DNA from: Streptomyces sp. R33
GTDB lineage: Bacteria; Actinomycetota; Actinomycetes; Streptomycetales; Streptomycetaceae
Reading direction: 5' to 3'
Length of the DNA stretch: 64,000 nt
Assembly: GCF_041200175.1 (NCBI RefSeq)
Contig: NZ_CP165727.1
Coordinates: 3,075,501-3,139,500, forward strand
A program made the position numbers and the translations under genes. The notes below the pieces were generated by a model. It was not told where the DNA came from and searched no databases. It saw only the letters and a list, made by a program, of their open reading frames with translations. Position 1 is the stretch's first letter. Every line of letters starts with the position of its first letter. Of the stretch, positions 26,102-45,602 are shown in pieces.

Positions 26102-26824
26102 ATGGCGAAGGTGGGGACCGCGCTGCGGGAGCTGCGCGGGGCGCAGAAGTCGGCGAAGGGGGTGTCGCTCTATTCGCGGTTCGTCAACCGGCCCGCGGGG
26201 CGCTACCTGGCCGCCGTGTCGTACGCGCTCGGGCTGACCCCGAACCAGGTGACGCTGGTCAGCGCCGCCTTCAGCTTCGCCGCCGTGGCCGCCGTCGCGC
26301 TCGTCGCGCCCTCCTGGGGGCTGGGCGTCGCCGTATGGGCCGCGCTCGCCGTCGGCTTCGCGTTCGACTCCGCCGACGGGCAGCTGGCCCGGCTGCGCGG
26401 GGGCGGCAGCGCGGCGGGCGAATGGCTCGACCACGTCGTGGACTGCGCCAAGCTGACCGCCCTGCACACCTGCGTGCTGATCGCGTTCCACCGCTTCCCC
26501 GAGGCGTACGGGACGGGCGGGGACGGCTGGCTGCTGGTGCCGCTGGGCTTCCAGTTCGCCTCGGTCGTCACCTTCTTCGGCGGGCTGCTGACCGAGAAGC
26601 TCAAGCCCAAGCCGGCGCCCGGGAGCCCGGCCGCCGCACCGTCGACGGTGCGTGCGGTGGCGCTGCTGCCCGTGGACTACGGGGTGTTCTGCCTGGTGTT
26701 CCTGGTGCTCGGGGGCGGGGGGCTGTTCCGCTGGGCGTACGCGGGGCTCGGCGCGGTCGCCGCGCTGTTCCTGCTGGCGTTCCTCGCGAAGTGGTTCCGG
26801 GAGCTCAGCGCCGTTCCGCGCTGA
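26102..26824 (+). CDS. CDP-alcohol phosphatidyltransferase family protein
   Basis: Integral membrane enzyme of 240 aa that transfers a phospho-alcohol from a CDP donor to an acceptor. The complete family motif D-x2-DG-x2-AR-x8-G-x3-D-x3-D is present from DSADGQLARLRGG to the two Asp of EWLDHVVD (residues about 93-118), so it should be active. Five or six hydrophobic segments surround it. The ATG at 26102 was chosen as the start of the conserved MAKVGTALRELRGAQ. It converges on a cytidylyltransferase gene, so it may use a CDP-alcohol made by that enzyme. The exact substrate is unknown. Confidence 0.88.
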   Translation: MAKVGTALRELRGAQKSAKGVSLYSRFVNRPAGRYLAAVSYALGLTPNQVTLVSAAFSFAAVAAVALVAPSWGLGVAVWAALAVGFAFDSADGQLARLRGGGSAAGEWLDHVVDCAKLTALHTCVLIAFHRFPEAYGTGGDGWLLVPLGFQFASVVTFFGGLLTEKLKPKPAPGSPAAAPSTVRAVALLPVDYGVFCLVFLVLGGGGLFRWAYAGLGAVAALFLLAFLAKWFRELSAVPR

Positions 26825-26870: not shown

Positions 26871-26898
26871 CCGCTCAGCGGCGCTCGGCGCTGAGCGG
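26871..26898. terminator. Inverted repeat at the convergent ends
   Basis: CCGCTCAGCG (26871-26880) pairs with CGCTGAGCGG (26889-26898), overlapping the last codons of the leftward cytidylyltransferase gene. It may end either transcript; assignment is weak. Confidence 0.45.
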
Positions 26899-27360
26899 TT
26901 CTGACAGTGCGTCCAGCGCCCGGCGCAGCTGGGTGCTGGAGGTGTGCACCGTGTAGGGGAAGTAGACGACGTCGACGCCGACGGCGGCGAAGTCCTTCTC
27001 CAGCTTGTCGCCCTTGGGGGTGCCCCTCCAGTCGTCGCCCTTGAAGATCACGTCGAAGCGGACCTGTCTCCAGGTCTCCACCTTGTCCGGGACCGTTTCG
27101 ACGAACGCCGCGTCCACGTACTTCACGCTGCGGACGATTTCGAGCCGCTCGACGAGCGGGATCATCGGGCGCCTGCCCTTGGCCAGTTCCGCCATCTCGT
27201 CGGAGACCACCCCGGCCACCAGGTAGTCGCACTGACTCCGGGCGTGGCGAAGGATGTTGAGATGTCCGATGTGGAACAGATCGTAAGCACCCGGGGCATA
27301 CCCGACTCGGTACGGTCTGTGCGCGGGTGCGCCAAGTTCGGACATGTCGTGCTCCGTCAT
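26875..27360 (-). CDS. Cytidylyltransferase family protein (TagD-like)
   Basis: Cytoplasmic nucleotidyltransferase of 161 aa. The GxYDxxHxGH nucleotide-binding motif is intact as GAYDLFHIGHLNIL (residues about 24-37), and the strand DYLVAGVVSDE, the KGRRPMIPLVERLEIV segment and HTSSTQLRRAL fit glycerol-3-phosphate or ethanolamine-phosphate type cytidylyltransferases. It would make a CDP-activated polyol or amino alcohol from CTP. Its partner is probably the CDP-alcohol phosphotransferase facing it. The ATG at 27360 follows GGGGGGTAACAC. It is divergent from the glycosyltransferase at 27487. Confidence 0.85.
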   Translation of the reverse strand: MTEHDMSELGAPAHRPYRVGYAPGAYDLFHIGHLNILRHARSQCDYLVAGVVSDEMAELAKGRRPMIPLVERLEIVRSVKYVDAAFVETVPDKVETWRQVRFDVIFKGDDWRGTPKGDKLEKDFAAVGVDVVYFPYTVHTSSTQLRRALDALSEPLSAERR

Positions 27361-27486: not shown

Positions 27487-28722
27487 GTGTCGAGATCCGG
27501 TCACCGGCGCCTACTGCTGGTTTCCACCAATTACGCTCCCGAGCACGCGGGGATTGGGCCGTACGCCACCCAGATCGCGGAGCACTGGGCGGATCTCGGC
27601 CATGACACCCACGTCCTCGCCGGCATGCCGCACTATCCGTCATGGTCGTTGGAGCCGGAGTACAAGGGGGCGCTCCGGCGCACGGAACGGCGCGCGGGGG
27701 TCACTGTGCACCGGCGTGCACACACCGTGCCGCCCCGCCAGACCGCCGTCAAGCGGGCCCTGTTCGAAGGATCGATTCTGCTGCACGGCACCGTGGCCCC
27801 GCCCCGCATGCCGCGCCCGGACGCGGTCATGGCCCAGATGCCAAGCCTGGCCGGCGGCGTCGTCGCCGCCCGGCTCGCCGCGCGCTGGAAGGTCCCGTAC
27901 ATCCCCGTCGTCCAGGACCTGATGGGCGCGGCCGCCGCGCAGAGCGGGATCAGCGGCGGCGACAAGGCGGCCGCGATCGCGGGGCGCGCGGAGGCGTACG
28001 CCCTGAAGCGGGCCACCCTGGTCGGCGTCATCCACGAGACCTTCGTGGACCGGGTCGTCGGCATGGGCGTGGACCCGAAGAAGATCCGCCTCGTCCCCAA
28101 CTGGTCCCACGTCCCGCAGCCCACCAGGCCGCGCGGCCAGACCCGCCGCCACCTGGGCTGGGCACCCGGCCAGCCGGTCGTCCTGCACTCCGGGAACATG
28201 GGCCTCAAGCAGGGCCTCGAGGTGCTCGTCGGCGCCGCCCGCCTCGATCCGGGGGTCCGTTTCGTCCTCATGGGCGACGGCAGCCAGCGCTCGGCCCTCG
28301 CCGACCTCGCGGCCGACGTACCGAATCTGGACATCATCCCCCCTGCCGCCGACGGAGAGTTCCCGGATATCCTCGCGGCGGCGGATGTGCTCGCCGTGAC
28401 GCAGCACGCGGCCGTGCTCGACATGAGCGTGCCGTCCAAACTGACCTCCTACTTCCAGGCCGGCCGGCCCGTCGTCGCCTCCGTCGCGGCGGAAGGCGGT
28501 ACCGCCCAGGAAGTGGAACGCTCGGGCGCAGGGGTGCTCGTACCACCGGAGGACCCCCACGCCCTGCTGAAGGCCGTACGGGCCCTCGCCGAGGACCCCG
28601 AGGGCGCGGATGCACTCGGGGCGGCCGGGCCGCGCCACGTGGCGGCCCACCTGAGCCGTGACGCGGGCCTGGCCCGCATCGACGCACTGATAGACGAAGC
28701 ACTTGGGGGTCCGCAGCCGTGA
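27487..28722 (+). CDS. Glycosyltransferase family 4 (WcaI-like)
   Basis: Cytoplasmic or membrane-associated GT-B glycosyltransferase, 411 aa, probably adding a sugar to the lipid-linked repeat unit. The N-terminal donor-side segment reads VSTNYAPEHAGIGPYATQIAE, and the C-terminal GT4 domain has VVLHSGNMGLKQGLEVL and the conserved nucleotide-sugar region LDMSVPSKLTSYFQAGRPVVAS. The layout matches the colanic acid WcaI-type group. The GTG at 27487 follows GGGGAGAAGGG. It overlaps the wzz-like gene by GTGA, opening a translationally coupled operon GT-wzz-wzx. The sugar is not readable. Confidence 0.9.
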   Translation: MSRSGHRRLLLVSTNYAPEHAGIGPYATQIAEHWADLGHDTHVLAGMPHYPSWSLEPEYKGALRRTERRAGVTVHRRAHTVPPRQTAVKRALFEGSILLHGTVAPPRMPRPDAVMAQMPSLAGGVVAARLAARWKVPYIPVVQDLMGAAAAQSGISGGDKAAAIAGRAEAYALKRATLVGVIHETFVDRVVGMGVDPKKIRLVPNWSHVPQPTRPRGQTRRHLGWAPGQPVVLHSGNMGLKQGLEVLVGAARLDPGVRFVLMGDGSQRSALADLAADVPNLDIIPPAADGEFPDILAAADVLAVTQHAAVLDMSVPSKLTSYFQAGRPVVASVAAEGGTAQEVERSGAGVLVPPEDPHALLKAVRALAEDPEGADALGAAGPRHVAAHLSRDAGLARIDALIDEALGGPQP

Positions 28723-30512
28723 TCGAGACGAACCGCCCTGCAGCGGTCCCGGCGGAGGACGAACCGGATCTCCTCAGGGACCAGTTCAAGCAGCTCCTGC
28801 GCTACCGCCGCCTCCTCGGGGCGGGTGTCGGCATCGGCCTGCTGGGCGGCGTCTACCTCGGCATCTCCACGGCCGACACCTACGTCGCGACCGCGGACAT
28901 CGTGCTGCGCGCACCCACCGACGACCCCTTCAACCCGAGCCTCGCGCCCGACAAGGCGATCAACATCGGCTCGGAGCGGCAGGTCGCGCTCAGCTCCTCC
29001 ATAGCCAACGAGGCCGCCAAGAAGCTCGGCGTGTCCTCGAAGGACTTCGCCGGCCTGCGCAGCGGCCTCCAGGTGACCAACCCGCCGCAGACGATGGTGC
29101 TGCGCTTCACGTACACCGCGTCCTCCCCCAAGCAGGCCGCGACCCGCGCCAACGCGATGACCGAGGCCTACCTGCTCAAGCGGCAGGAGTCCCTCGACGT
29201 CACCCGCGACAAGATGGTCAAGGGGTACCAGGAGCAGCGCGATCCGGTCGCCAAGAACCTCGACGAGCTCGTCAAGCAGATCAACGCCATGCCGGCCGGT
29301 CCGGGGCGCGACGCCGCGTACTCCTCGAAGACGGACCTCCAGAGCAAGGTCAACACGCTCAACAGCAACATCGCGAAGCTCCAGGCCCTGGACATGACCC
29401 CGGGCCGGGTCACCAGCGCCGCGACCCCGCCGTCCGACACCGACGGCCCGGGCATCCCGATGTCGCTCGCGCTCGGCGCGGCCGTGGGCCTCGCGCTCGG
29501 TCTGCTCGCCGCGTGGGTGCGGCTCGTCTTCGACCCGGCGCCGCGCTCCGAGGGCGACGTGGCGCGGGCCCTGCGCGCGCCCGTGCTCGGCTACCTGCCG
29601 CGGGCCAAGACCATCGGCGGACCGCTGCTCGCGGCCGGCGAGGAAGACCCCCGGCTCGCCGAGGAGTTCCGCTCGGTGGCCTTCCGGCTCGCCTACGACT
29701 CCCGCTTCGCCGACCGGCGCCGGCTGCTCGTCGTCGCCCCGCGCGGCAGCAGCGAGACAGCCGCCGCGGCGGCCGTGAACCTGGCCGCCTCCTTCGCGGA
29801 GACCGGCAAGGACGTCCTCCTCATCGAGGCCGACCTGCGCACCCCGGTGCTGGCCAGCCAGCTGCCGACCGGTGCGGGCGGCCGGCCGCGCTGGAGCCAG
29901 ACGCCGGGCAGCCCGGCCGCCGGCGGGCAGGCCGCCGCGCACGGCGACTCCGACTGGCCCGACGGACGCCAGCTCGTCGTCGACGCCGGGGAGTCCGGCG
30001 CCTTCGACCTGATCCCGGGCGAGCCGGTCCGCAACGTGGCCCGTGCGCTGACCTCCCCGCGCGCCACCCGGCTGATCTCCGAGGCCGACTCCCCCAACTC
30101 CACCGTCGTCGTGCTCGCGCCGCCCGTGCTCTCGTACGCCGACGCCCTCGCGCTCGTCGACCGCGTCGACGGGGTCCTGGTCGTCTGCGACCCGCGCGCC
30201 GTCCACCGCAGCGACCTGTCCCGGATCCGCGAGCTGATCAGCGGCGCCGGCGGCACGGTGCTCGGCGCGGTGCTGCACGCCCCGCTGCCCGGCGAGAAGC
30301 GCAGCCGCGGGGGCCGCGGCGGCAAGTCGAAGGCTGCGGGCGCCCCGGCCGCTGCGGCCCGGCCGTCCGCGCCGCAGCCGCAGCCGCAGCCGCTCACGCG
30401 GCAGCCGAACCAGCCGCACCAGGCGAACCGGCAGGCCGAGCCGGAGCAGCACATCCCGGGCGACGGCACGGACACGGTGGCCCTGCGCACGGTGCGCATG
30501 GGCCGCAGATGA
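28719..30512 (+). CDS. Wzz-type chain-length protein fused to a degenerate BY-kinase domain
   Basis: Inner-membrane protein of 597 aa. TM1 (residues about 33-50) and TM2 (about 248-267) flank an extracytoplasmic Wzz domain that should set polymer chain length. A cytoplasmic P-loop-like domain follows. Its Walker A equivalent reads APRGSSETAAAA (about 340-351), where BY-kinases have GxGKST, so the phosphate-binding Lys is missing. The Walker A-prime strand VLLIEADLRTP is intact. The Gln/Pro-rich tail has no tyrosine cluster. It may regulate the polymerase without kinase activity. It overlaps its neighbours by GTGA and ATGA. Confidence 0.88.
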   Translation: MIETNRPAAVPAEDEPDLLRDQFKQLLRYRRLLGAGVGIGLLGGVYLGISTADTYVATADIVLRAPTDDPFNPSLAPDKAINIGSERQVALSSSIANEAAKKLGVSSKDFAGLRSGLQVTNPPQTMVLRFTYTASSPKQAATRANAMTEAYLLKRQESLDVTRDKMVKGYQEQRDPVAKNLDELVKQINAMPAGPGRDAAYSSKTDLQSKVNTLNSNIAKLQALDMTPGRVTSAATPPSDTDGPGIPMSLALGAAVGLALGLLAAWVRLVFDPAPRSEGDVARALRAPVLGYLPRAKTIGGPLLAAGEEDPRLAEEFRSVAFRLAYDSRFADRRRLLVVAPRGSSETAAAAAVNLAASFAETGKDVLLIEADLRTPVLASQLPTGAGGRPRWSQTPGSPAAGGQAAAHGDSDWPDGRQLVVDAGESGAFDLIPGEPVRNVARALTSPRATRLISEADSPNSTVVVLAPPVLSYADALALVDRVDGVLVVCDPRAVHRSDLSRIRELISGAGGTVLGAVLHAPLPGEKRSRGGRGGKSKAAGAPAAAARPSAPQPQPQPLTRQPNQPHQANRQAEPEQHIPGDGTDTVALRTVRMGRR

Positions 30513-31723
30513 GCCGGCGCGGCCTCGCCGCCGTCTCCTCGGTCCTGGACCAGGCCGCATCCAGCGCCACCAACATCCTGGTACTGGTGCTGGCCGCCCG
30601 GCTGTCTTCGGCGTCCGGCTTCGCCGACTTCTCGATGGTGTACGTGACGTTCAGCGTGCTCCTCGGGCTGAACATGGCGTACGTCGGCCAGACGGTGGTG
30701 CTGGAGAAGGACGAGGACCGGCTGGGCGCGGTGTGCCGCTCGGGCCTCGCGTTCACCGCGGCCGCCTCGGCGGCGGTGGGCGCGGCGCTGGTCGTCGTCG
30801 GCCTCGCCCTGCCCGGGGCCGGCGGCCGGGCCTTCCTCGCGCTGGGCCTCGTACTGCCGCTGGTGCTCGTCCAGGACGGGCTGCGGTACTGCTTCTCCGC
30901 GCTGCGCACACCCGAGCGGGCGCTGGCCGCGGACGCGCTGCGGCTCGCGTGCGTCGTCGCCGCGCTGCTGCTGCAGCCCGAAGGGGCCTCGCCGGGACGG
31001 CTGGTGCTGGTGTGGGGCGTCTCGGCGCTTCCGGCGCTGGCGCTGGGCCTGTGGCTGCTGCGCCCGTACGTGCGCGGCGCTGCCGCGGACCTGCGGCCGT
31101 ACCTGCGGCGCGGGCACCTGGGGCAGCGGTTCGTCGTCGAGTTCGCGGTGGGCAACGGCTCGAGCCAGCTGGCGGTGCTCGGCCTCGGGCTGTTCGCCAC
31201 GCCGCTGGCGGTGGGCGCGCTGCGGGGTGCGACCACGCTTTTCGGTCCGCTGAACGTGCTGTTCAACTCGGCGAACGCGTTCGGGCCGCCGGTGGTGGGG
31301 CGGGCTTCGGGCAAGCGGGGCGTGGTCCGGCTGACGCTGCTGATGGGCGGTGTGCTGGCGGTGCTCGGTGCCGGGTGGGGGGCGGTCCTGTACGCGCTTC
31401 CGGCGGGGGTGGGCCGACAGCTGCTGGGCGACACGTGGGGGTCGGCTTCCGCTCTGCTCCCGGCGACGGGTGCCCAGTACGCGGTGATGGGGCTGGGCAC
31501 GTGCGCCCTGCTGACCCTGCGGGTGCTGGCCCCCAAGGCCACGCTGTCCCTGCAGGTGGTCTTCTCGGCCCTCTCGGTGGCGCTGCTGCTGGGCGGATAC
31601 GCGCTGGGGGGCGTGACCGGCGCCGCGTGGGGCCTGGCGGCGGGCTCGGCCCTCAAGGCCGCGGCGGCCTGGCTCCGCGTCTCCCGCATCCCGGCCCCGG
31701 TCCCGGTCACGACCGCCGCCTGA
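30509..31723 (+). CDS. Wzx-like polysaccharide flippase (MATE/MOP family)
   Basis: Polytopic membrane protein of 404 aa with about 12 hydrophobic segments, no other domain and few charged residues. It begins MSRRGLAAVSSVLDQAASS and has the N-terminal polysaccharide-synthesis (Wzx/RfbX) pattern SGFADFSMVYVTFSVLLG. It would flip the lipid-linked repeat unit across the membrane. The ATG overlaps the wzz stop (ATGA), supporting coupled expression with the chain-length protein. A hairpin follows at 31726. Identity as flippase rests on family resemblance and neighbourhood. Confidence 0.8.
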   Translation: MSRRGLAAVSSVLDQAASSATNILVLVLAARLSSASGFADFSMVYVTFSVLLGLNMAYVGQTVVLEKDEDRLGAVCRSGLAFTAAASAAVGAALVVVGLALPGAGGRAFLALGLVLPLVLVQDGLRYCFSALRTPERALAADALRLACVVAALLLQPEGASPGRLVLVWGVSALPALALGLWLLRPYVRGAAADLRPYLRRGHLGQRFVVEFAVGNGSSQLAVLGLGLFATPLAVGALRGATTLFGPLNVLFNSANAFGPPVVGRASGKRGVVRLTLLMGGVLAVLGAGWGAVLYALPAGVGRQLLGDTWGSASALLPATGAQYAVMGLGTCALLTLRVLAPKATLSLQVVFSALSVALLLGGYALGGVTGAAWGLAAGSALKAAAAWLRVSRIPAPVPVTTAA

Positions 31724-31776: not shown

Positions 31777-33300
31777 TCAGCGGAGGGTGGTGGACCGGTC
31801 CTGGCGGTACGTCGCGACCAGCGCCAGGCAGAGGCCGGCTATCGCCACGCGCCCGGACGCCTGCAGCAGCGGCCCCCGCAGCAGGATGAACGAGTAGCCC
31901 GCCACCAGCGGGACCACCACCGAGATCAGGCTCCCCGGCGGGGACCTGCGCGTGGCGCGCTTCGCGTAGCGGCGGTCCACGCGCGCCGAGGCGTAGCCCA
32001 GACCCAGCAGCCCGGCCCCCATCCCGAGCGACCCGAAGTCGAGCCACAGCTCGGCCCAGATCGGCGACGACAGGTTCGTGTTGACCGTCCCCATCCACTG
32101 GCCGACCATCACGCCCGTGTCCCGGGGCTTGCCCGGCCACACCGAGCGCGGCACCGCGAAGAAGACCGACCCCGCGAGCTGGCGCCCGTAGGAGTGCCCG
32201 GGCCCGGAGTTCGAGAAGGTGATGGTGTTCGCGAACATGCCGATCTGGTCGTAGTCCTTCAGCGCCATCGGCTCCAGGAACGACGTCGTCTCGACCGGCT
32301 TGTAGTTCTTCTCGTCGTACCGGAAGCGGTCCGCGAACGGGAACACGAGCAGGGCGATCACGACCGCCATCGACAGCGCGACCCGGTACATCGCGGCGCT
32401 CACCGGGAAAACGGTGAAGAGCAGCGCGAACATGACCGTGAGGAACCAGTACCGCGGGTTCGAGATGGGGTTGTTGACCACCAGGTTCAGCAGGGCGAGC
32501 GCCCCCCAGGTGACGATGATCGAGACCTTGCGGCGGGCGTACGTCGAGGTGATCAGCCAGCGCGTGTACAGCAGCAGGGCGAGCAGCGCCGGGACGGTGC
32601 CGAAGCCGCGCAGCAGGGCCTGGCCGGCCTGGCCGTCGCCGTTGGAGACGCCGGCCTCCTCGATGCCCGCGATGATTTCCTGCCGGCTGGAGAAGAAGAC
32701 CGCAGGGCCGCCGAGCTTCATGATGAAGGCCGCGCTGCACAGGAAAGCGATGGCGGTGAGCAGTTGGAGGCGGCGCCGGTGGGCCATGACCGGGCGCGGC
32801 TCCTTCTGGGAGCCGCCGGCGCGGCCGGCCGGCCGGTGCCGGGCGAGCAGGACGCCGACGTCGAACGCCGTGCAGCCGAGCAGGACCAGGCCGATGGCGA
32901 TGGTGAGGTCGGAGCGGGGGCCGACCACGGGGGTCGGGACCCGGCCGAGGACGGCCTGCGCGAGCGGGGCGACGCCCATCGCCATGTAGACGAACAGCCA
33001 GAAGGAACCCTGGAGCAGCTTGCGGCGGCTGGTCAGGACCATCGCGGAGAGCCGGGCGCCCGCGTACATCGTGAGCAGGAGCTGGAGCCAGAAGGCCGCG
33101 TCGCGCTGGCCGTCGCCGCGCTGGACGGCCACGACGAGCGGCAGGAAGACGGTGAAGCCGAGGATGAGCGGGACGGACAGGGCGCGCGAGAGCAGGGTGC
33201 GCGGGGTGGTGACGCGGCCCCACTTGTGCTCGTCCTCGAGCTCGGGAACCGGCGGGGTCACGGGGGGCTTGCGTATGTCCGTTGCCACTGCTGCCCCCAC
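31777..33300 (-). CDS. Wzy-like oligosaccharide repeat-unit polymerase
   Basis: Membrane protein of about 507 aa with ten or more hydrophobic segments. One long loop, FRYDEKNYKPVETTSF through FFAVPRSVWPGKP, resembles the large periplasmic loop of O-antigen/EPS polymerases, including the P-R-S-x-W-P-x-K-P segment conserved in this group. It would join repeat units outside the membrane. It is oriented against the GT-wzz-wzx operon, so it has its own promoter. The start could be GTG 33300 or GTG 33288 (VATDIRK), the second after a GGGGG stretch. Confidence 0.78.
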   Translation of the reverse strand: MGAAVATDIRKPPVTPPVPELEDEHKWGRVTTPRTLLSRALSVPLILGFTVFLPLVVAVQRGDGQRDAAFWLQLLLTMYAGARLSAMVLTSRRKLLQGSFWLFVYMAMGVAPLAQAVLGRVPTPVVGPRSDLTIAIGLVLLGCTAFDVGVLLARHRPAGRAGGSQKEPRPVMAHRRRLQLLTAIAFLCSAAFIMKLGGPAVFFSSRQEIIAGIEEAGVSNGDGQAGQALLRGFGTVPALLALLLYTRWLITSTYARRKVSIIVTWGALALLNLVVNNPISNPRYWFLTVMFALLFTVFPVSAAMYRVALSMAVVIALLVFPFADRFRYDEKNYKPVETTSFLEPMALKDYDQIGMFANTITFSNSGPGHSYGRQLAGSVFFAVPRSVWPGKPRDTGVMVGQWMGTVNTNLSSPIWAELWLDFGSLGMGAGLLGLGYASARVDRRYAKRATRRSPPGSLISVVVPLVAGYSFILLRGPLLQASGRVAIAGLCLALVATYRQDRSTTLR

Positions 33301-33413: not shown

Positions 33414-33953
33414 TTGCGTGATCTTCCTGCCTTCACGCTGGCCGGGTACGACAAGGGGCGCGGGCTGCTGACGCAGGCGCTCTGGTTCGCGGTGATGAAC
33501 ACGCTGTTCATGGCGTGGTTCTGTCCGGCCCGGCTGCGGGTGGCGCTGCTGCGGGCGTTCGGCGCGCAGATCGGCGAGGGCGTGCTGATCCGGCACCGGG
33601 TGCGGGTGCTGTGGCCGTGGAAGCTCACCGTCGGGGACCACACGTGGATCGGCGAGGGCGCCTGGCTGCTGAACCTGGAGCCGGTGACCATCGGGGCGAA
33701 CGTGTGCATCTCGCAGGAAGCCATGCTGTGCACCGGTTCGCACGACCACCGGGCCGCCGACTTCCGCTACCGCAACGCGCCGATCGTGGTCGAGGACGGT
33801 GCGTGGGTGGCCGTACGGGCGACCGTGCTGGCCGGGGTCACGATGGGCCGCTGCGCGGTGGCGGGCGCCGGTTCGGTGGTCCACAGAAACCTTCCTGCAC
33901 TGACCCTGCAGACGATGGACGGGCAGCGCCGCCCGGTCGAGGAGCCCAAGTGA
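33414..33953 (+). CDS. WcaF-like acetyltransferase (left-handed beta-helix)
   Basis: Acyl-CoA-dependent O-acetyltransferase of 179 aa, probably acetylating a sugar of the repeat unit. The N-terminal part has a hydrophobic helix (LLTQALWFAVMNTLFMAWF). Hexapeptide repeats follow: IGEGVLIRHRV, VGDHTWIGEGAWL, IGANVCISQEA, VVEDGAWVAVRATVLAGVTMG. The catalytic His lies in CTGSHDHRAADF. The pattern fits the putative colanic acid WcaF group. The TTG start at 33414 follows GAGGGGCGACAG; an ATG at 33400 is in another frame. It overlaps the next glycosyltransferase by GTGA. Confidence 0.88.
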   Translation: MRDLPAFTLAGYDKGRGLLTQALWFAVMNTLFMAWFCPARLRVALLRAFGAQIGEGVLIRHRVRVLWPWKLTVGDHTWIGEGAWLLNLEPVTIGANVCISQEAMLCTGSHDHRAADFRYRNAPIVVEDGAWVAVRATVLAGVTMGRCAVAGAGSVVHRNLPALTLQTMDGQRRPVEEPK

Positions 33954-35065
33954 GAGTCCTGCACGCCGTCACGCTCCACTCCCCCTCGCACGCCTTCGGC
34001 GGGCCGGTCCGGGTCGCGCTGAACCTGGCCGGGGGGCTGCGTGCGCGCGGCCACGAGGCCGGCCTGCTGGCGCTCGGCGAGGGCTTCCCGGATCCGTGGC
34101 CCACCTCCGTGGAGGGGGTGCCGGCGAAGCTGTTCCCGGCCCGGCGCATCCTGCCCCTGGGCTTCAGCGGGATGACCTCGCCGGCCCTGCTGGCCTCGGC
34201 GGGCCGGCTGGTCCGGGACGCGGACGTGGTCCACGTCCACCTGGCGCGGGACCTGGTCACGCTGCCGGTGGCCCTGGCGGCGCTGCGGGCCGGCAAGCCC
34301 CTGGTGCTGCAGACCCACGGGATGGTGGACCCGAGCGAGAAGCTGCTGGCCAAGGTGCTGGACGCGGTGGCCGTGCGCCGGCTGCTGCGCGGCGCGGACG
34401 CGGTGCTGTACCTGACCCCGCACGAACGGGAGGGCCTCGACGCGGTGGTGGGCGCCCCGCTGCCGGGGGCGGTCCGGCTCGTGAACGGCACCACGGCACA
34501 GAAGGAGCGCCCGGCGCTCGCCGGTCCCCCGCGCATCCTGTACTCGGCGCGCCTGCAGGCCCGTAAGCGCCCGGTGGACTTCGTGGACGCGGCCCCGGCG
34601 ATCCTGGCGGCGCACCCGGACGCGGAGTTCGTGGTGGCCGGCCCGGACGAGGGCGAACTGCCGGCGGTGAAGGCGCGCATAGGGGAGCTGGGCCTGACGT
34701 CCCGCTTCACGGTCCCGGGGGCCCTGTCCACTGCCGAGGTCCTGACGGAGCTGCGCCGGGCGCACGTCTATGTCCTCCCCTCGGTGGACGAGCCGTTCCC
34801 GATGTCGGTGCTGGAGGCGCTGTCGGTGGGCGTGCCGACGGTGGTCACCCACTCCAACGGGCTGGCCCGCGACATCGCGACCGCGAGCGCCGGCCACGCG
34901 GTCACCCCGGGCCCCGCCGGCGTCGCGGAGGCGGTCCTCGCCCTCCTGGACCCCGCCGAGAACGCCAAGGCCTCGGCCGCGGCCCGCGAACTGGCCACGG
35001 AGTCCTTCTCGATGGACGCGGTCCTGGACACCCTGATCCCGGTCTACGAGGCGGCCCAGCGCTGA
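33950..35065 (+). CDS. Glycosyltransferase family 4
   Basis: GT-B glycosyltransferase of 371 aa. N-terminal acceptor domain: VTLHSPSHAFGGPVRVALNLAGGL and DADVVHVHLARDL. C-terminal donor domain: RILYSARLQARKRPVDFVDA and the E-x7-E type catalytic region EPFPMSVLEALSVGVPTVV, so it should be active and retaining. The GTG at 33950 overlaps the acetyltransferase stop by GTGA. Together the two genes form a small operon that probably adds and decorates one residue of the exopolysaccharide. The donor and acceptor sugars cannot be told from sequence. Confidence 0.9.
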   Translation: MRVLHAVTLHSPSHAFGGPVRVALNLAGGLRARGHEAGLLALGEGFPDPWPTSVEGVPAKLFPARRILPLGFSGMTSPALLASAGRLVRDADVVHVHLARDLVTLPVALAALRAGKPLVLQTHGMVDPSEKLLAKVLDAVAVRRLLRGADAVLYLTPHEREGLDAVVGAPLPGAVRLVNGTTAQKERPALAGPPRILYSARLQARKRPVDFVDAAPAILAAHPDAEFVVAGPDEGELPAVKARIGELGLTSRFTVPGALSTAEVLTELRRAHVYVLPSVDEPFPMSVLEALSVGVPTVVTHSNGLARDIATASAGHAVTPGPAGVAEAVLALLDPAENAKASAAARELATESFSMDAVLDTLIPVYEAAQR

Positions 35066-36174: not shown

Positions 36175-38952
36175 TTACTTCGGGCCGAAGGTGAGGACGA
36201 GCTGCGGAGCGGCGTCCGCTGCCGTCGACTCCATGGACCAGATCCACAGCGGGTCGGTGCCCGTGCTCGTCAGGGCCAGGCTGTAGCTGCTGCCCAGCAC
36301 CGGGGAGAGCGCGGCGGTGTCCAGCGGGGTGCTCTGGATCGCCGAGCCGTCCGGCACGCTCGCGAACGCGCCGAGCGGGGTGGTGCCCAGGGTCGGCTTG
36401 TTGTTGAACGTCGTGCTCGCACCGCTCCAGGCGCCGGTGACCGGGACCACGGACACCTTGTCGGCCGTACCGGCGCTCGCCTGGGTCGACGTCTTGATCT
36501 GGAGCGCGGCGGACTTCAGGACCTGCCCGGCCGGCGCGGCCGGCAGGTTGAAGCGCAGGTACGTCTCGTACGCCGAGGTGCCGCGGACGGCCAGCGAGGT
36601 GCTCGCGCCGTTGGCCGCGCTCGGGGCGCCCTGGTTGATGTAGGTGTCCTCGGTCGCGGAGACCTTGGAGACCGTGTCGGAGGGCGCCTTGGCCAGGTCG
36701 TAGTGGTTCTTGGCCTGGGCCGCGGTGAGCGCCTTCGGGTACACGGCCGTCTCGTCGATCTGGCCGGCGAAGAAGTTGCTCGTCGGCTTGGTCGGCCAGC
36801 TGCCGAGGTTGTCGCCGCCGACGTGCCAGTAGCCCTCGTACGAGATGGCGCTGGTGACGTTCAGCGTGCCCTTGCTCTGGCCGTCGACGATCAGCTCCAT
36901 GCCGCCCGCACCCAGGGTGCCGACGACGTGGTGCCACTTGTTGTCGTTGTACGTGTCGAACAGACCGGTGGAGACGGTGCGCGTCGAGCCGTTGTAGACG
37001 CCGAAGACCAGACGACCGGTGTTGGTCATGTAGATCTGCTTGTCGTACGTGCCGCTGTTGCGCGCGGTGTTGTTGCCGAAGCCGATCAGCTTGCCGCCGC
37101 GCGTGGTGTTCGTCTTGAACCAGGTCTCGACCGAGAAGGCACTGCCCACGGTCTGGCGGTGGTCGCTGTACACCTGCTGGCTGGTGCCGTTGAAGCCCAT
37201 CGCCGTGCTGGCGCCGCTGATCGCGCCGGGCGTCTGGCGCAGGGCCGGGGCGTTGAGCTGGATGCCGCTGGTGTTGCCGCTCTCCGAGGAGTCGGCGACG
37301 TACGGGCTGATGGTGTCGTCGTAGCGCCAGTACAGGTTGGCGCCGTCGGCGCGGACCTGGTTCGGGTACGCCTGCACCGAGCTCGGGACCGTGACCGAGG
37401 CCGTGGCCGACAGGGCGCTGGTGTTGCCCGCCGCGTCGGTGGCCGTCACGCGGTAGGTGTACGACTGGCCGGCCTTGACCGTGGTGTCGTTCCAGGAGGC
37501 CTGGGGACGCTCCCACTCCAGGGACTCGGCGGCGACCGTGGCGATCGGGCTGGCGGAGCCGTTGCGATAGATGCGGTAGGTCAGCTTGCTGTCGTCCGCG
37601 TCGTAGCTGGTGCGCCAGCGGACCTGGACCTCACCGGGCTTGACGCTGCCGGCGCTCGCGACCGGGGTCGTCGGGGCGCCGACGTCGCCGGTGGAGGCGA
37701 AACGGGTGAGCGCCTGCTGCGGCTTGCCGTTGATGGCGGTGAACTCACCGCCGGCCCACATGTACTTGACGTCGCCCTTCTCGGCGATCGTCATGGCGCG
37801 CGGGCCGATGCCCTCGCCGAGGCCGTCGTTGGCGGTGGGGTGCCAGCCGAGCTTGCGCGGGCTGCGCACGAAACCGTCCACGGGCGCCGGGGACGCGCCT
37901 TCGTAGTTGGTCAGCTGCGCGTTGAAGAAGTTGCGCTTGCCGTCGGGGAACTGTCCCTCGAGCGAGCAGTCGTGCGCGTGCGAGGAGCTGTAGAGCACTC
38001 CGTCGTACGGGAGCACGGCCTGGGTCGCGCCGAGGCAGCGGTCGCGCCACTTCTCGCTGAAGTCGCTCAGCCTGAGGCCGATGCGGCCGTCGAAGACGCC
38101 GCCGCCGGAACCCTCGTTGCCGGTGTAGAAGCCGGTCGAGTCGGTGGCGATGTCCTTGACCACGGAGTTCGACGGGATGTTGCTGTACGTCTTGGCGACC
38201 GCGCCCGTGGTGGCGTTCACGACGGCCAGGGCGTGCGTGTTGGAGCCGTTGACCGAGAAGAAGTCGCCGCCCAGGAGCGCGTTCTTGCCGTCCGGGGTGA
38301 TCTCGATCGCGCGGCCGGGCTCGTCGGCGTTGGCGACGAAGGGCTTGAGCGCACCGGAGCCGGCATCGACCGCGGCGAACCGCTCGCGGGTCTGGCCCTC
38401 GACGGTGCCGAAGTCGCCGGCCGCGTACAGGGTGTCGTCCGTGACGGCGAGGTCGCGCACGGTGGCGGGGAAGCCCGGGTGGAAGGAGGCCTTGGGGGTG
38501 CAGCTCTCGATGTCGATCGCCGCGACGCTGGAGACCGGGGTGCCGTTGACGGCGCCGAAGTAGCCGCCCGCGTACAGGGTCTTCTTGTCCTTGGAGACGG
38601 CCAGGGCACGGACGGTCGCGCTGCCGTCGCCGATGGTGAAGGCGAGCTTGCACGAGGTCGGCTTGCCCGTCGCGGCGTCCAGCGCCACGAAGTTCACGGC
38701 TTCCTGCTCGGCGCCGCTGGTGCCGTCGGGCGGACGGACGGCCGAGAAGGTGCCGCCCGCGAAGACGGTGCCGTTCGCCTGGGCCATCGCAAAGACGATG
38801 CCGTTGGGCTGCCAGGTGGGCAGCTCGTCGGCGGTGAATGCCACGGGAGGCGTGATGGCGGACGCCTCGGGCATCAGCACCAGACCTATGCCGGTGCCGG
38901 CGCCGGCCAGTGACAGGACGAGGGCAGCAGTCAGCCCTCTGGATCTACGCAT
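36175..38952 (-). CDS. Large exported LamG/FN3 surface protein
   Basis: 925-aa secreted protein. From ATG 38952 (after GGGGGGCTC) it has a Sec signal (MRRSRGLTAALVLSLAG, cut near EASA). Next comes a propeller-like region (residues about 35-420) with repeats such as GTVFAGGTFSAV, KTLYAGGYFGAVNG, LYAAGDFGTVEG and ALLGGDFFSVNG. A fibronectin-III domain (about 425-525: GEVQVRWRTSYD to YTYRVTATDAAGN), a LamG/concanavalin-like domain (about 540-735: FSVETWFKTN, KWHHVVGTL, IDETAVYPKALT) and a DNRLRE/CBM96-like C-terminal domain (EDTYINQG, YLRFNLPA, LVLTFGPK) follow. It probably binds a glycan; no catalytic residues seen. It lies inside the EPS region. Confidence 0.85.
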   Translation of the reverse strand: MRRSRGLTAALVLSLAGAGTGIGLVLMPEASAITPPVAFTADELPTWQPNGIVFAMAQANGTVFAGGTFSAVRPPDGTSGAEQEAVNFVALDAATGKPTSCKLAFTIGDGSATVRALAVSKDKKTLYAGGYFGAVNGTPVSSVAAIDIESCTPKASFHPGFPATVRDLAVTDDTLYAAGDFGTVEGQTRERFAAVDAGSGALKPFVANADEPGRAIEITPDGKNALLGGDFFSVNGSNTHALAVVNATTGAVAKTYSNIPSNSVVKDIATDSTGFYTGNEGSGGGVFDGRIGLRLSDFSEKWRDRCLGATQAVLPYDGVLYSSSHAHDCSLEGQFPDGKRNFFNAQLTNYEGASPAPVDGFVRSPRKLGWHPTANDGLGEGIGPRAMTIAEKGDVKYMWAGGEFTAINGKPQQALTRFASTGDVGAPTTPVASAGSVKPGEVQVRWRTSYDADDSKLTYRIYRNGSASPIATVAAESLEWERPQASWNDTTVKAGQSYTYRVTATDAAGNTSALSATASVTVPSSVQAYPNQVRADGANLYWRYDDTISPYVADSSESGNTSGIQLNAPALRQTPGAISGASTAMGFNGTSQQVYSDHRQTVGSAFSVETWFKTNTTRGGKLIGFGNNTARNSGTYDKQIYMTNTGRLVFGVYNGSTRTVSTGLFDTYNDNKWHHVVGTLGAGGMELIVDGQSKGTLNVTSAISYEGYWHVGGDNLGSWPTKPTSNFFAGQIDETAVYPKALTAAQAKNHYDLAKAPSDTVSKVSATEDTYINQGAPSAANGASTSLAVRGTSAYETYLRFNLPAAPAGQVLKSAALQIKTSTQASAGTADKVSVVPVTGAWSGASTTFNNKPTLGTTPLGAFASVPDGSAIQSTPLDTAALSPVLGSSYSLALTSTGTDPLWIWSMESTAADAAPQLVLTFGPK

Positions 38953-39197
38953 GAGCCCCCCAGGGCAGTTGCCCGGTTTGATGGCTTGAACTATCCGAAC
39001 AGCCATATGTACTGGCGCAGACTAGGGCTCCTGCGAGGACCCGGTCACCTCCCTTGACCCATTGCATACCAACTTGGAATGAACGGTTCAGGTTGGAGGG
39101 CGCGCAGCGGACATACGACAGGTTTGCCCCGGCCACATCCACCGATACCAGTGGAGATGACCGGGACACGGCAAATCGTAGGGGAAATATAAGGCTT
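38953..39197. other. Promoter region of the LamG gene
   Basis: 245 bases between the LamG start and the gmd stop, AT-richer than the flanks. The segment CCAACTTGGAATGAACGG with a downstream AGGTTGG shows partial symmetry and may hold a regulator site. No gene is seen. Confidence 0.4.
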
Positions 39198-40496: not shown

Positions 40497-41441
40497 ATGA
40501 CAAGTTCGCTGCCGCTCCTGCCCCCGAACGCCCGCGTCTTCGTCGCGGGCCACCGCGGCCTCGTGGGCTCCGCGGTCGCCCGCCGGCTCACCGCCGACGG
40601 CCACGAGGTGCTCACCCGGGGCCGCGCCGACCTCGACCTGCGCGATGCCGCCGCGACCGGGGCGTACCTGAAGGACGTCCGCCCCGACGCCGTCGTGCTG
40701 GCCGCCGCCAAGGTCGGCGGGATCATGGCCAACAGCACCTACCCGGTGCAGTTCCTCGAGGACAACCTCAAGATCCAGCTCAGCGTGATCGCCGGTGCGC
40801 ACGAGGCCGGCGTGGGCCGTCTGCTGTTCCTGGGCTCCTCGTGCATCTATCCGAAGCTCGCCCCGCAGCCCATCAGCGAGGACGCCCTGCTGACGGGCCC
40901 GCTGGAGCCGACCAACGAGGCGTACGCCCTGGCGAAGATCGCCGGCATCGTCCAGGTCCAGTCGTACCGCAAGCAGTACGGGGCCTCGTACATCTCGGCG
41001 ATGCCCACGAACCTCTACGGGCCGGGCGACAACTTCGACCTCGAGACCTCGCACGTGCTGCCCGCCCTGATCCGACGCTTCCACGAATCGGCCGCCGAGG
41101 GCCGCGACGAGGTCACGCTGTGGGGCAGCGGCACCCCGCGCCGGGAGTTCCTGCACGTGGACGACCTGGCGGCCGCCTGCGCGGTGCTGCTGGGCAGTTA
41201 CGACGGTGACGAGCCGGTCAACATCGGCTGCGGAGAGGACCTCACCATCAAGGCCCTCGCCGAGACCGTCGCCGAGGTGACCGGCTTCCGCGGCCGGCTC
41301 GTCTGGGACACGTCCAAGCCGGACGGCACGCCGCGCAAGCTCCTGGACGTCACCCGTCTGACCTCGCTCGGCTGGAAGCCGGAGATCGGACTGCGGGAGG
41401 GCATCGCCGCCACCTACCGGTGGTGGCGCGAGCAGGGCTGA
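40497..41441 (+). CDS. fcl: GDP-L-fucose synthase
   Basis: Epimerase/reductase (GMER) that turns GDP-4-keto-6-deoxymannose into GDP-L-fucose, 314 aa. The NADPH Rossmann motif is [16 protein letters not shown], the active site is GSSCIYPK plus YALAKI (Y/K pair), and [10 protein letters not shown] and [14 protein letters not shown] match Fcl. The ATG at 40497 gives [18 protein letters not shown]. With gmd it supplies GDP-fucose for the adjacent glycosyltransferases. gmd and fcl are divergent here rather than in one operon, which is less usual than the tandem order of enteric clusters. Confidence 0.96.
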
Positions 41442-41466: not shown

Positions 41467-42954
41467 TCAGTACGCTCCGCGACCGTCGACGACGGCGCGG
41501 AGGGTACGGCCCATGACGTCGACGTCACTGGTGAAGGACCAGTTGTCGACGTACTGCAGGTCGAGCTGGATCGTCTCGTCCCAGGACAGGTCGGAGCGTC
41601 CGCTGATCTGCCAGAGTCCGGTCATGCCCGGCCGCACGGTGAGCCGGCGCAGCTCGACCTCGTCGTACTGGGCCACCTCCTCCGGCAGCGGCGGGCGCGG
41701 GCCGACGAGCGACATGTGCCCGCTCAGCACGTTGAACAGCTGGGGCAGTTCGTCCATGGAGGTGCGGCGCAGCAGCCGGCCCACCCGGGTCACCCGGGGG
41801 TCGCGGCGGATCTTGAACATCAGGCCGTCGTTCTCGTTGGCCCCGGACAGCTCGTTCTTGAGCCGGTCCGCGTCCACGACCATGGTGCGGAACTTCCACA
41901 TGACGAACGGCACCCCGTCGCGCCCGATGCGCCGCTGGCGGTAGAACGCCGGGCCGCGCGAGCCGAGCCGGATCGCCAGGACGATGCCGAGGAAGACCGG
42001 GGAGAGCAGCAGCAGTCCGAGCGCGGCCCCCGCGCGGTCGAGGACCGACTTGAGCAGGGTCTGGACGCCGCGGCTCACCGGCGGAGCCACCCGCAGTACG
42101 GCGAGCCCGCCCGCGGACAGCGTCTCCAGCCGCTTGACGGAGACCTCCACGAGGCCGGGGAAGACGGCGAGTTCGAGGCCCGCGTCGTGCAGCGCCCAGG
42201 CGACCCTGCGCAGCCGCTCCCCCGCGATCCGCGCGCCGGGGGCGACCAGCACCAGGTCGGCGTGGTGGCTGCGGACGGCGCCGAGCACCGCGGCGGAGTC
42301 CGCGTTCGGGGCCTCGGGCGCGGCGGCGTCGAGCCGGGCCGCGACGGGCACCCCGCCCTCGAGCGGGCCGGGGCCGACCGGCACCACTCCGACGACGACG
42401 TACGGGTGGTCGGTGCGCGCGGCCAGGTGCTCGATGACGGACTCGGCGGCGCCGGGTTCACCGACCAGCAGGACCCGGCTGACGGCGTGCGCCTCGCGGC
42501 GGGCCGCCGAGAGGTGACGGTAGGTCAGCTTGTGGCAGGCCACGGTGATGAGGAGGGCGGGCAGCAGGGCGCCGAGCGCGGACAGCCGGGGGGTGCTCTC
42601 ACCGGTCACCACGCGGGCCACGGCCAGGACACCGATCAGAATCAGCCAGTCGTGTACGACGGGCAGCACACCGCGTGATTCTCCGAGGACGCGGGCCGCG
42701 TACCGCCGGCGCACCGCCTGCACGCCGGTCCATGCCAGGGCCGCGCCGAGGGCGCAGTACACCGGCCGGACCTGCTGCGCCGCATGGAAGACCAGCCCTA
42801 CGGGGACCGCGGCGCCGAGGAAGTCGGCCGTGAGGGCAGCGGGCAGGTACCAACGGGCCTTGTCGCCGAGCCGCCTCGCCGGGGCGGCCGCGAGCCGTGC
42901 CGATTCGGCGGCTCCTGCGGCCAGTCTTTGCGCAGGAAAATGGACATGCCTCAT
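41467..42954 (-). CDS. Polyprenyl glycosylphosphotransferase (EPS initiating sugar transferase)
   Basis: Membrane enzyme of 495 aa that starts the repeat unit by moving a sugar-1-phosphate to undecaprenyl phosphate. The N-terminal half has four or five hydrophobic segments and a CoA-binding-like domain ([16 protein letters not shown]). The C-terminal catalytic Bac_transf domain has one hydrophobic segment, then [43 protein letters not shown] and [14 protein letters not shown]. The D-E pair in MDELPQ is catalytic. The ATG at 42954 follows GGGGGGCCC. It is the key first step of the EPS pathway and the last EPS gene here. Confidence 0.93.
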
Positions 42955-43334
42955 GGGCCCCCCTGGCACGTGGTCTATGACAGTGGCGCGTGCCCATGGC
43001 TTCCCCTGGCGACGGACAACTGGCGCACCGGGAAACAGTACGACAAACACCCGTACGACAAATGCCGATTGCCGGAACGGGGCCTCTTGTTGCGCAAGTG
43101 TTAGCAACCGGTACCAACCGTTCCAGATATCGGGCCCCCCTTCGCACGCGAAGGTGAATGGTTCGGATACCGGATACGTCTCATCGGTCAACGAACCGTT
43201 TCCAGCCAACCTTTTGACGCGGCCCTGACATTGGAGCCGGCAGCTGGCACTCTTCGATCCGTTCTTCGCACCAGCCTGCTCTGCCCGGAGGCCCACCCAG
43301 CCGTCCGGAACCCCCCTTGCAGAAGGAGTCTGCG
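42955..43334. other. Divergent promoter region between the sugar transferase and the M4 protease
   Basis: About 380 non-coding bases. Two exact 10-base direct repeats GTACGACAAA stand at 43038-43047 and 43053-43062, and two near-copies of AACCGTT(T)CCAG at about 43117 and 43195. These could be binding sites for a shared regulator. Both divergent genes must be promoted here. Confidence 0.5.
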
Positions 43335-45602
43335 TTGAGTCACACCCCCCACAGGCGTGCCACCGCGGCCGGCGCTCTCGTTGCCGCCGCCGCACTGCTC
43401 GCCGTCGGCATCCAGGCCGGCACCGCCACCGCCGACGCCACCGCGTCGCAGGCACGCAACGCCGCTCAGCCCAACCCGGGTGCGGCCGCCGTCAATCTCA
43501 GCCCCTCCGAGCGTGCGACGCTCATAGCCGACGCCAACTCGACCACCGTCCAGGCGGCCAAGGCCCTCGGCCTCGGCGAGCAGGAGAAGCTGGTCGTCCG
43601 GGACGTCGTCAAGGACGCCGACGGCACCACGCACACCACCTACGAGCGCACCTACGGCGGACTCCCCGTGCTCGGCGGCGACCTGACGGTCCATGCCAAG
43701 GCCGGCGTCACCAAGAGCATCACCAAGGCCACCAACCACGAGATCAAGGTCGCCGACACCACGGCCACGGTCACCCCGGCCGCCGCCGAGGGCCAGGCCG
43801 TCTCCGCGGCGAACGCCGAGGGCTCCAAGGACGCCAAGGCCTCCAAGACCGCCCGCAAGGTGATCTGGGCCGCCGAGGGCGCCCCCGTCCTCGCCTACGA
43901 GACCGTCGTGGGCGGCCTCCAGGACGACGGCACCCCGAGCGAGCTGCACGTGATCACCAACGCCAAGACCGGCGCGAAGATCACCCAGTGGCAGGCCATC
44001 GAGACCGGCACCGGCAACACCATGTACAGCGGCCAGGTCACGCTGGGCACCTCGCAGTCGGGCAGCAACTGGACGCTGACCGACGCCGCGCGCGGCGGCC
44101 ACAAGACCTACAACCTCAACGGCGGCAGCTCCGGCACCGGCACCCTCTTCAGCAACACCACCAACATCTTCGGCAACGGCGCCGCCTCCAACAAGGAGAC
44201 CGCCGGTGCGGATGCGCACTACGGTGCACAGCTGACGTGGGACTACTACAAGAACGTGCACGGCCGCAACGGCCTGCGCAACGACGGCGTGGCCCCGTAC
44301 AGCCGGGTCCACTACGGCAACGCGTACGTGAACGCGTTCTGGGACGACTCCTGCTTCTGCATGACGTACGGCGACGGTACGAGCAACTCGCACCCGCTGA
44401 CGTCCATCGACGTGGCCGCCCACGAGATGACCCACGGCCTCACCTCGGTCACCGGCAACATGACCTACAGCGGTGAGCCCGGCGGCCTGAACGAGGCGAC
44501 CTCCGACATCATGGCGGCCGCCGTCGAGTTCTACGCCAACAACCCGCAGGACGTCGGCGACTACCTGGTCGGCGAGAAGATCGACATCAACGGCGACGGC
44601 ACCCCGCTGCGCTACATGGACAAGCCGAGCAAGGACGGCGGCTCCAAGGACGCGTGGTACTCGGGCATCGGCGGCATCGACGTCCACTACTCCTCGGGCC
44701 CGGCCAACCACTGGTACTACCTGGCATCCGAGGGCTCCGGCGCCAAGGTCATCAACGGGGTGAGCTACAACTCGCCGACCTCCGACGGCCTCCCGGTCAC
44801 CGCGATCGGCCGTGACGCCGCCTCGAAGATCTGGTTCCGCGCGCTGACGGTGGGCTACTTCAAGTCGAACACCAACTACGCGGCCGCCCGCACCGCGACC
44901 CTGCAGGCCGCTGCCGACCTGTACGGCGCCGGCTCGACCACGTACAACAACGTGGCCAACGCCTGGGCGGGCATCAACGTCGGTCCGCGCATCGTCAACG
45001 GCGTCTCGGTCACCCCGATCGCCAACCAGACCACCCAGATCAACACCGCTGTGAGCCTTCAGGTCCAGGCGACCAGCACCAACCCGGGTGCGCTGAGCTA
45101 CGCGGCGACCGGCCTGCCGGCCGGCCTGTCGATCAACTCCTCGACCGGTCTGATCTCGGGCACGGCGACCACCGCGGGCACGTCCAACGTGACCGTGACG
45201 GTGACCGACTCGGCGAGCCAGACGGGCACGGCGGCCTTCACCTGGACCGTCGGCACGTCCCAGCAGAACGTGTTCGAGAACACGAACGACTACCAGATCG
45301 CGGACAACGCGACCGTCGAGTCACCGATCGCCGTGACCCGCACGGGCAACGCCCCGAGCACCCTCAAGGTGGACGTGAACATTGTCCACACCTACGTCGG
45401 TGACCTGCGGGTCGACCTGGTCGCCCCCGACGGCACCGTCTACAACCTGCGCAACCGCTCCGGCGGCAGCGCGGACAACATCGTCCAGAGCTTCACCGTG
45501 AACGCCTCGTCCGAGGTGGCCCAGGGCACCTGGAAGCTCCGCGTGGCGGACCTCGCCAGCCTGGACACCGGCTACATCAACAGCTGGAAGCTCACCTTCT
45601 GA
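43335..45602 (+). CDS. Secreted M4 (thermolysin-like) metalloprotease with P domain
   Basis: Extracellular zinc neutral protease, 755 aa. Signal peptide, then an FTP/PepSY-type propeptide (residues about 50-210, TTYERTYGGLPVLGGDL), a Peptidase_M4 catalytic domain with HEMTH at 363-367 and the third zinc ligand Glu387 in GGLNEATSD, an Ig-like (He_PIG) domain (about 560-635) and a C-terminal P/proprotein-convertase domain (FENTNDYQIADNA to NSWKLTF). All zinc and catalytic residues are intact. The TTG at 43335 follows AGAAGGAG; an earlier TTG at 43317 overlaps that site. A strong hairpin follows. Confidence 0.95.
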   Translation: MSHTPHRRATAAGALVAAAALLAVGIQAGTATADATASQARNAAQPNPGAAAVNLSPSERATLIADANSTTVQAAKALGLGEQEKLVVRDVVKDADGTTHTTYERTYGGLPVLGGDLTVHAKAGVTKSITKATNHEIKVADTTATVTPAAAEGQAVSAANAEGSKDAKASKTARKVIWAAEGAPVLAYETVVGGLQDDGTPSELHVITNAKTGAKITQWQAIETGTGNTMYSGQVTLGTSQSGSNWTLTDAARGGHKTYNLNGGSSGTGTLFSNTTNIFGNGAASNKETAGADAHYGAQLTWDYYKNVHGRNGLRNDGVAPYSRVHYGNAYVNAFWDDSCFCMTYGDGTSNSHPLTSIDVAAHEMTHGLTSVTGNMTYSGEPGGLNEATSDIMAAAVEFYANNPQDVGDYLVGEKIDINGDGTPLRYMDKPSKDGGSKDAWYSGIGGIDVHYSSGPANHWYYLASEGSGAKVINGVSYNSPTSDGLPVTAIGRDAASKIWFRALTVGYFKSNTNYAAARTATLQAAADLYGAGSTTYNNVANAWAGINVGPRIVNGVSVTPIANQTTQINTAVSLQVQATSTNPGALSYAATGLPAGLSINSSTGLISGTATTAGTSNVTVTVTDSASQTGTAAFTWTVGTSQQNVFENTNDYQIADNATVESPIAVTRTGNAPSTLKVDVNIVHTYVGDLRVDLVAPDGTVYNLRNRSGGSADNIVQSFTVNASSEVAQGTWKLRVADLASLDTGYINSWKLTF

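Follow-up and report, generated by a model that had tools for sequence, protein, structure and literature searches.

The window analyzed here, a stretch of 64,000 nucleotides from Streptomyces sp. R33 (contig NZ_CP165727.1), carries an exopolysaccharide cluster of the Wzx/Wzy type. Within this cluster, an open frame from a GTG at 28719 to a TGA at 30512 encodes a protein of 597 amino acids, a Wzz/Wzc-type polysaccharide co-polymerase (PCP). The protein has the PCP-2a layout; two transmembrane (TM) helices surround an extracytoplasmic domain, a domain resembling bacterial tyrosine kinases (BY-kinases) is fused to them, and the gene (pcp) sits in a Wzx/Wzy cluster. Both helices were placed from an AlphaFold2 (AF2) model and the sequence rather than by a dedicated TM predictor. 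The start of pcp overlaps the upstream glycosyltransferase gene, which ends at 28722, by GTGA, and its end overlaps a putative flippase frame (30509) by ATGA. Both overlaps had been pointed out in the original prediction, an earlier model-made note on this DNA. The GTGA start context is common to 52 of 55 loci (hand count), and the three exceptions (L053, L054, and L056) are close relatives in which our script probably chose a TTG start wrongly. The possibility of a frameshift or misplaced start was rejected, because the frame, the overlaps, and homology cover the whole protein. An open frame also exists on the reverse strand, but homology is found only in the forward frame.

Sequence searches link the protein to the BY-kinases. 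A Pfam search of the 597-residue protein gave no match above cut-off. NCBIfam returned weak polysaccharide-tyrosine-autokinase matches, with TIGR01007 at 50 bits against a curated cut-off of 108. In PDB searches, phmmer matched CapAB (7e-10) and Wzc (4e-9), and a profile built from 37 orthologues matched Wzc at 9e-14, values that establish a family link beyond chance. A full-length AF2 model from orthologues only had a mean pLDDT (predicted local distance difference test) of 63.7 and was poor at residues 373–471, so the domain was modeled alone (pLDDT 69.3, predicted template modeling score 0.72). The alignment for the domain model had 34 rows, eight of them from other BY-kinase-like proteins. 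Although these might bias the model toward a kinase fold, Wzc already ranked first for the family-only model, whose best PDB matches are Wzc chains (E = 5.6e-16). The domain model superposes on the CapAB and Wzc kinase domains with a VIA Z of 18.1 and a root mean square deviation of 3.0–3.8 over 214–226 aligned residues, and Foldseek matched it to 4jlv at 2.5e-11. The next fold family after the BY-kinases is MinD, at Z 8.1. As modeled, the cytoplasmic half has a BY-kinase fold, which bears out the earlier description of it as BY-kinase-like.

The catalytic motifs were located by alignment with L002, the canonical BY-kinase of the same genome. The L002 P-loop, PGEGKT, pairs with S344-S345-E346-T347-A348-A349 at equal loop length; VDADLR pairs with I369-E370-A371-D372-L373-R374, and VIVDTAP with V463-V464-V465-L466-A467-P468-P469. 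The Walker A Lys is thus replaced by A348 and the Walker B Asp by L466. EX2RX2R, the oligomerization motif of BY-kinases, has A321 in place of its second Arg. No Tyr follows residue 522, where a BY-kinase would carry its C-terminal Tyr cluster. Walker A' (hydrophobic-DxDxR) reads IEADLR, with Glu for the first Asp. The missing Lys in a P-loop reading APRGSSETAAAA at residues 340–351 and the Gln/Pro-rich tail devoid of Tyr had both been noted before; the present analysis adds that the Walker B Asp and the second ring Arg are lost too. The stretch VLLIEADLRTP, previously called intact, is present at residues 366–376, but E370 replaces the first Asp. Because Walker A, Walker B, the ring motif, and the Tyr cluster were each tested and found wanting, we class the protein on its motifs as a BY pseudokinase and not as a BY-kinase.

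These losses extend to the whole orthologous family. Among 61 orthologues, the Lys position is Ala in 58, Ser in two, and Pro in one; the Walker B Asp position is Leu in 57 and Val in four; and the second ring Arg is Ala in all 61. The first Asp of A' is Glu in 60 and Asp in one, and D372 and R374 are each kept in 60. Tail Tyr residues number zero in 36 orthologues, one in 24, and two in one. The 11 outgroup BY-kinase-like proteins, an uneven sample drawn from searches with the window protein, have Lys (six) or Arg (five) at the Walker A position, and all retain the Walker B Asp and the ring Arg. Two of them also have Glu at the first A' position, so the Asp-to-Glu change alone is not evidence of disablement; the Lys-bearing relative L064 shows this change as well. 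L039, whose contig ends inside the gene, shows the same loop and was excluded from the alignments, counts, and selection analysis. A recent loss in a single strain was ruled out, since all 61 orthologues share the motif losses. With Walker A Lys in 0 of 61, the aligned sequences indicate that the loss of catalytic motifs is ancient and fixed rather than a recent peculiarity of one fusion. The alignment check proposed in the original prediction therefore has a divided outcome: the family does normally use this P-loop, but the family itself is degenerate.

A tree was computed from 35 of the 72 aligned rows with the Walker A columns omitted and with Lys, Arg, or lost labels assigned by hand from the alignment. 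All 24 Lys-less rows fall on one side of a branch with 100/100 support and a length of 2.08. Long branches connect L084 to the clade, as the tree program warned; this row is placed on the outgroup side, and the clade is recovered in 100% of bootstrap trees. Besides Streptomyces, the clade includes two other genera of its family, represented by L060 (57% identity) and L061 (46%). Sampling of other Streptomycetaceae genera gave an orthologue in 2 of 14 genomes, and sampling of other families of the order gave none in four. A search for plasmid homologues gave one weak Weissella match.

Separate from this clade, other Wzz/BY-kinase fusions of Streptomycetaceae (L063, L066, L067, L069, and L084) carry Arg at the Walker A Lys position (GDGRT, ADGRT, GEGRT); they retain the Walker B Asp and have zero or one tail Tyr. 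L065, a near relative of these, keeps Lys. Loss of the Walker A Lys looks to have been repeated within Streptomycetaceae, because the tree requires two to three changes. At another locus (L059; G004:C2:6620373-6621431, minus strand), two tandem Wzz-like proteins each retain only scraps of the kinase fold. They lack most of the domain and were excluded from both tree and counts; their genome has no close orthologue of the window protein.

Selection was measured as the ratio of nonsynonymous to synonymous substitution rates (dN/dS; Nei-Gojobori), each value being a median over non-independent pairs of 55 sequences with region borders chosen by hand. The ratio is 0.24 for the N terminus and first TM helix, 0.56 for the extracytoplasmic domain, 0.22 for the second helix and juxtamembrane segment, and 0.23 for the pseudokinase domain, which evolves more slowly than the extracytoplasmic domain. 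Within the pseudokinase domain, the former P-loop has a ratio of 0.14, A' one of 0.00, and the former Walker B one of 0.06. Purifying selection maintains the dead kinase domain. The lost catalytic motifs, and further decay in the distant orthologue L081, would fit a kinase half that is a functionless relic attached to a Wzz half that alone matters. That explanation appears highly improbable, as purifying selection is stronger on the kinase half than on the Wzz half, and the frame through the kinase half is open in the extracted orthologues.

The tail behaves differently along its length. The linker drifts (0.92), and the last 20 residues are constrained (0.31); the conserved, Thr-containing C-terminal peptide (30450–30509) contrasts with the freely drifting tail before it. 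Within it, GDGTDTVALRTVR is nearly fixed, with T586 in 54 of 55 and R597 in 55 of 55. Median dS over the last 20 codons is 0.57, not below that elsewhere, so the constraint seems to come from the protein sequence rather than from the overlap with the start of the following gene. A related C-terminal end occurs in L058 (53%) and is absent from L060, L061, and L081. A somewhat similar end, ETTLQLR, is found in L063, a member of another family.

From the motifs and models together, we consider it likely that the protein is a co-polymerase whose fused BY pseudokinase would act as a phosphorylation-independent scaffold. The motifs argue against kinase chemistry, as there is no Walker A Lys, Walker B Asp, or Tyr cluster, and the ring motif is changed; these losses also speak against an active kinase that governs the oligomeric state. 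The original prediction had reached a pseudokinase reading from a single protein; several separate motif losses, conservation, and the fold now strengthen it, but the condition is family-wide and not peculiar to this fusion. In such a system, the product would serve a Wzx/Wzy-type pathway through its two membrane helices, small Wzz domain, and cytoplasmic dead kinase fold. The dead domain may pack beneath the membrane in an assembly like those of Wzc and CapAB, where it could hold or pace the co-polymerase assembly with Wzy and Wzx, much as proposed for EcpK and HfsB. It would do so through protein contacts instead of cycles of Tyr phosphorylation. A partner probably docks on the constrained C-terminal peptide.

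Some observations weigh against this scaffold model. A' is retained (E370, D372, and R374 each in 60 of 61), and residual nucleotide or metal binding is conceivable. The same-genus clade member L081 (39% identity) has lost A' as well, so A' is not indispensable in all. With one Arg gone from the ring motif, a Wzc-like octamer would not be assured. Distribution is also patchy, with an orthologue in 4 of 14 other same-genus genomes sampled. In one alternative, A' would still allow binding of ATP or another nucleotide, and the domain would be a nucleotide-gated switch that carries out no phosphotransfer. No stretch evolves more slowly than A', and the window protein preserves the length of the P-loop, yet we regard such a switch as unlikely: the protein has S345 and T347 in place of both P-loop glycines, A348 for the Lys, A349 for the Thr, and L466 for the Walker B Asp.

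The same genome encodes a sequence-intact BY-kinase fused to its own Wzz half (L002, also L078; C1, about 1718255–1719310). Its motifs are GEGKTST, VDADLR, and VIVDTAP, with a YGYGYGD tail, and it adjoins a glycosyltransferase-like gene and a phosphatase-like gene that we take, from a CX5R-type motif and without a family search, to encode a low-molecular-weight Tyr phosphatase. Phosphorylation of the window co-polymerase on Tyr in trans by L002, with this phosphatase as its counterpart, would preserve the classical control. It is very improbable, as the tail of the window protein offers no Tyr, its orthologues have few (counts above), and L002 is tied to a Wzz domain of its own in a different cluster. 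One query with the phosphatase (E 0.01) found a homologue in neither the 64-kb window nor any family locus, and a gene of this type lies beside three of six Lys-bearing relatives (L002, L062, and L083); with a single query, and with canonical loci shorter than those of the family, this comparison is supportive only. The search for an active cognate kinase suggested earlier has thus found an intact kinase, but one with its own Wzz half, cluster, and phosphatase-like neighbor, facing a protein without a Tyr tail. A further short Wzz-like protein of 236 residues without a kinase domain (L073; C1, 5097788–5098135) adjoins a glycosyltransferase-like gene.

Streptomyces possess Hanks-type Ser/Thr kinases. 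One could speculate that control has moved from autophosphorylation of tail Tyr to the C-terminal Thr peptide (DTVALRTVR; T586). Such a kinase would phosphorylate the peptide in trans, a partner, FHA-type or other, would recognize it, and the dead domain would provide the docking frame. We hold this to be distinctly doubtful.

Table 1. Positions of pcp, its domains and motifs, and the surrounding genes in the window
Feature	Coordinates	Strand	Basis
PCP-2a-like (Wzz/Wzc-type) protein with C-terminal BY-pseudokinase domain, 597 aa	28719..30512	+	Open frame, homology, model
Predicted TM helix 1 (residues 30-52)	28806..28874	+	AF2 helix H30-52, hydrophobic sequence
Extracytoplasmic Wzz domain (residues about 53-244)	28875..29450	+	AF2 pLDDT blocks 63-94; Foldseek Wzc/WzzE/KpsE; dN/dS 0.557 (residues 53-245)
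Predicted TM helix 2 (residues 245-271)	29451..29531	+	AF2 helix H245-271
BY-pseudokinase domain (residues about 278-522)	29550..30284	+	VIA Z 18.1 to 4jlv/2ved/7nhr/3la6; dN/dS 0.226 (residues 301-522)
Remnant EX2RX2R (E315-X2-R318-X2-A321), second Arg lost	29661..29681	+	A321 in 61/61; Arg in 11/11 outgroup
Remnant Walker A (residues 340-351, APRGSSETAAAA), A348 at Lys position	29736..29771	+	Alignment, 61 orthologues
Walker A' (residues 366-376, VLLIEADLRTP), nearly intact	29814..29846	+	60/61 counts; dN/dS median 0.000 (365-378)
Remnant Walker B (residues 463-469, VVVLAPP), L466 at Asp position	30105..30125	+	0/61 orthologues with Asp
Gln/Pro-rich linker without Tyr (residues 523-577), drifting	30285..30449	+	dN/dS 0.922
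Conserved C-terminal peptide (residues 578-597, HIPGDGTDTVALRTVRMGRR)	30450..30509	+	dN/dS 0.313; T586 in 54/55, R597 in 55/55
CDP-alcohol phosphatidyltransferase, conserved neighbor	26102..26824	+	
Cytidylyltransferase-like protein, conserved neighbor	26875..27360	-	
Glycosyltransferase, GTGA overlap with pcp	27487..28722	+	
Putative Wzx flippase, ATGA overlap with pcp	30509..31723	+	Context and original prediction; no Pfam or NCBIfam match
Putative Wzy repeat-unit polymerase	31777..33300	-	Weak TIGR04370, below cut-off
WcaF-family exopolysaccharide acetyltransferase	33414..33953	+	NF007797, 200 bits (cut-off 192)
Glycosyltransferase (second)	33950..35065	+	
NAD-dependent sugar epimerase/dehydratase	40497..41441	+	
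Initiating sugar-phosphate transferase	41467..43455	-	Pfam Bac_transf; presumably WbaP/WcaJ type

The neighborhood of pcp is conserved. Neighbors were counted over 55 related loci, 54 of them Streptomyces records and one labeled 'Actinobacteria bacterium OV450'. All 55 loci have the CDP-alcohol transferase, the nucleotidyltransferase, and the first glycosyltransferase; 54 have the flippase, 47 the polymerase, 45 the acetyltransferase, and 44 the second glycosyltransferase. Of the eight loci without a polymerase, six are short records, but two, L031 and L040, are of full length. The best match to the polymerase in L012, L035, and L055 is at the opposite end of the locus. The exopolysaccharide region also contains a gene (36175–39006, minus strand) for a 943-residue protein with laminin-G-like, CBM96, and weak β-propeller matches, possibly a polymer-binding surface protein.

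Comparable pseudokinases are described in PMC12004946, the source of the comparisons that follow. EcpK of Myxococcus xanthus is a BY pseudokinase that works with the PCP-2 protein EpsV, and EcpK and HfsB are proposed to scaffold co-polymerases without Tyr phosphorylation (PMC12004946). Like EcpK, the window protein combines a BY-kinase fold with the absence of Walker A, Walker B, and a Tyr tail, belongs to a Wzx/Wzy pathway, and is conserved across its lineage; it thus has the hallmarks of an EcpK/HfsB-type pseudokinase. Unlike EcpK, a separate protein that has lost A' and has a basic helix as its tail, it is fused to a Wzz half, keeps A', and ends in the conserved Thr-containing peptide (PMC12004946). 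The HfsB/HfsA pair of Caulobacter crescentus likewise includes a pseudokinase required for a Wzx/Wzy polysaccharide, but the two are separate proteins and are likened here by description, not sequence (PMC12004946). Fusion of a Wzz half and a dead kinase in one chain is reported, after Cuthbertson et al., for the PCP-2 proteins SMc01795, BCETI_6000729, Mlr8439, and VV1_2305, which differ in their Gram-negative hosts and are again compared by description rather than sequence (PMC12004946). Wzc of Escherichia coli and CapAB of Staphylococcus aureus share the layout and fold but are active kinases with a Tyr-rich tail (PMC12004946), whereas in the window protein the Lys, Walker B Asp, and Tyr cluster are all missing.

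The words 'Streptomyces' and 'Actino' do not occur in the text of PMC12004946. An Actinoplanes paper describes Wzz proteins, and the word tyrosine is absent from it (PMC13390465). Our searches of an open-license library turned up no paper that we recognized as a description of this pseudokinase family in Streptomyces. The BY pseudokinase is a kind already known, of which this Streptomyces branch is apparently undescribed.

The standard model of length control in capsules and exopolysaccharides requires cycles of Tyr phosphorylation on the co-polymerase. Some Gram-negative pathways have been argued to run without such cycles (PMC12004946). A Streptomyces family with a dead but strongly conserved fused kinase domain would extend this phosphorylation-free idea to Gram-positive actinomycetes. 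As the system is a single chain and an intact paralogue is encoded in the same genome, the roles of scaffold and kinase would be experimentally separable.

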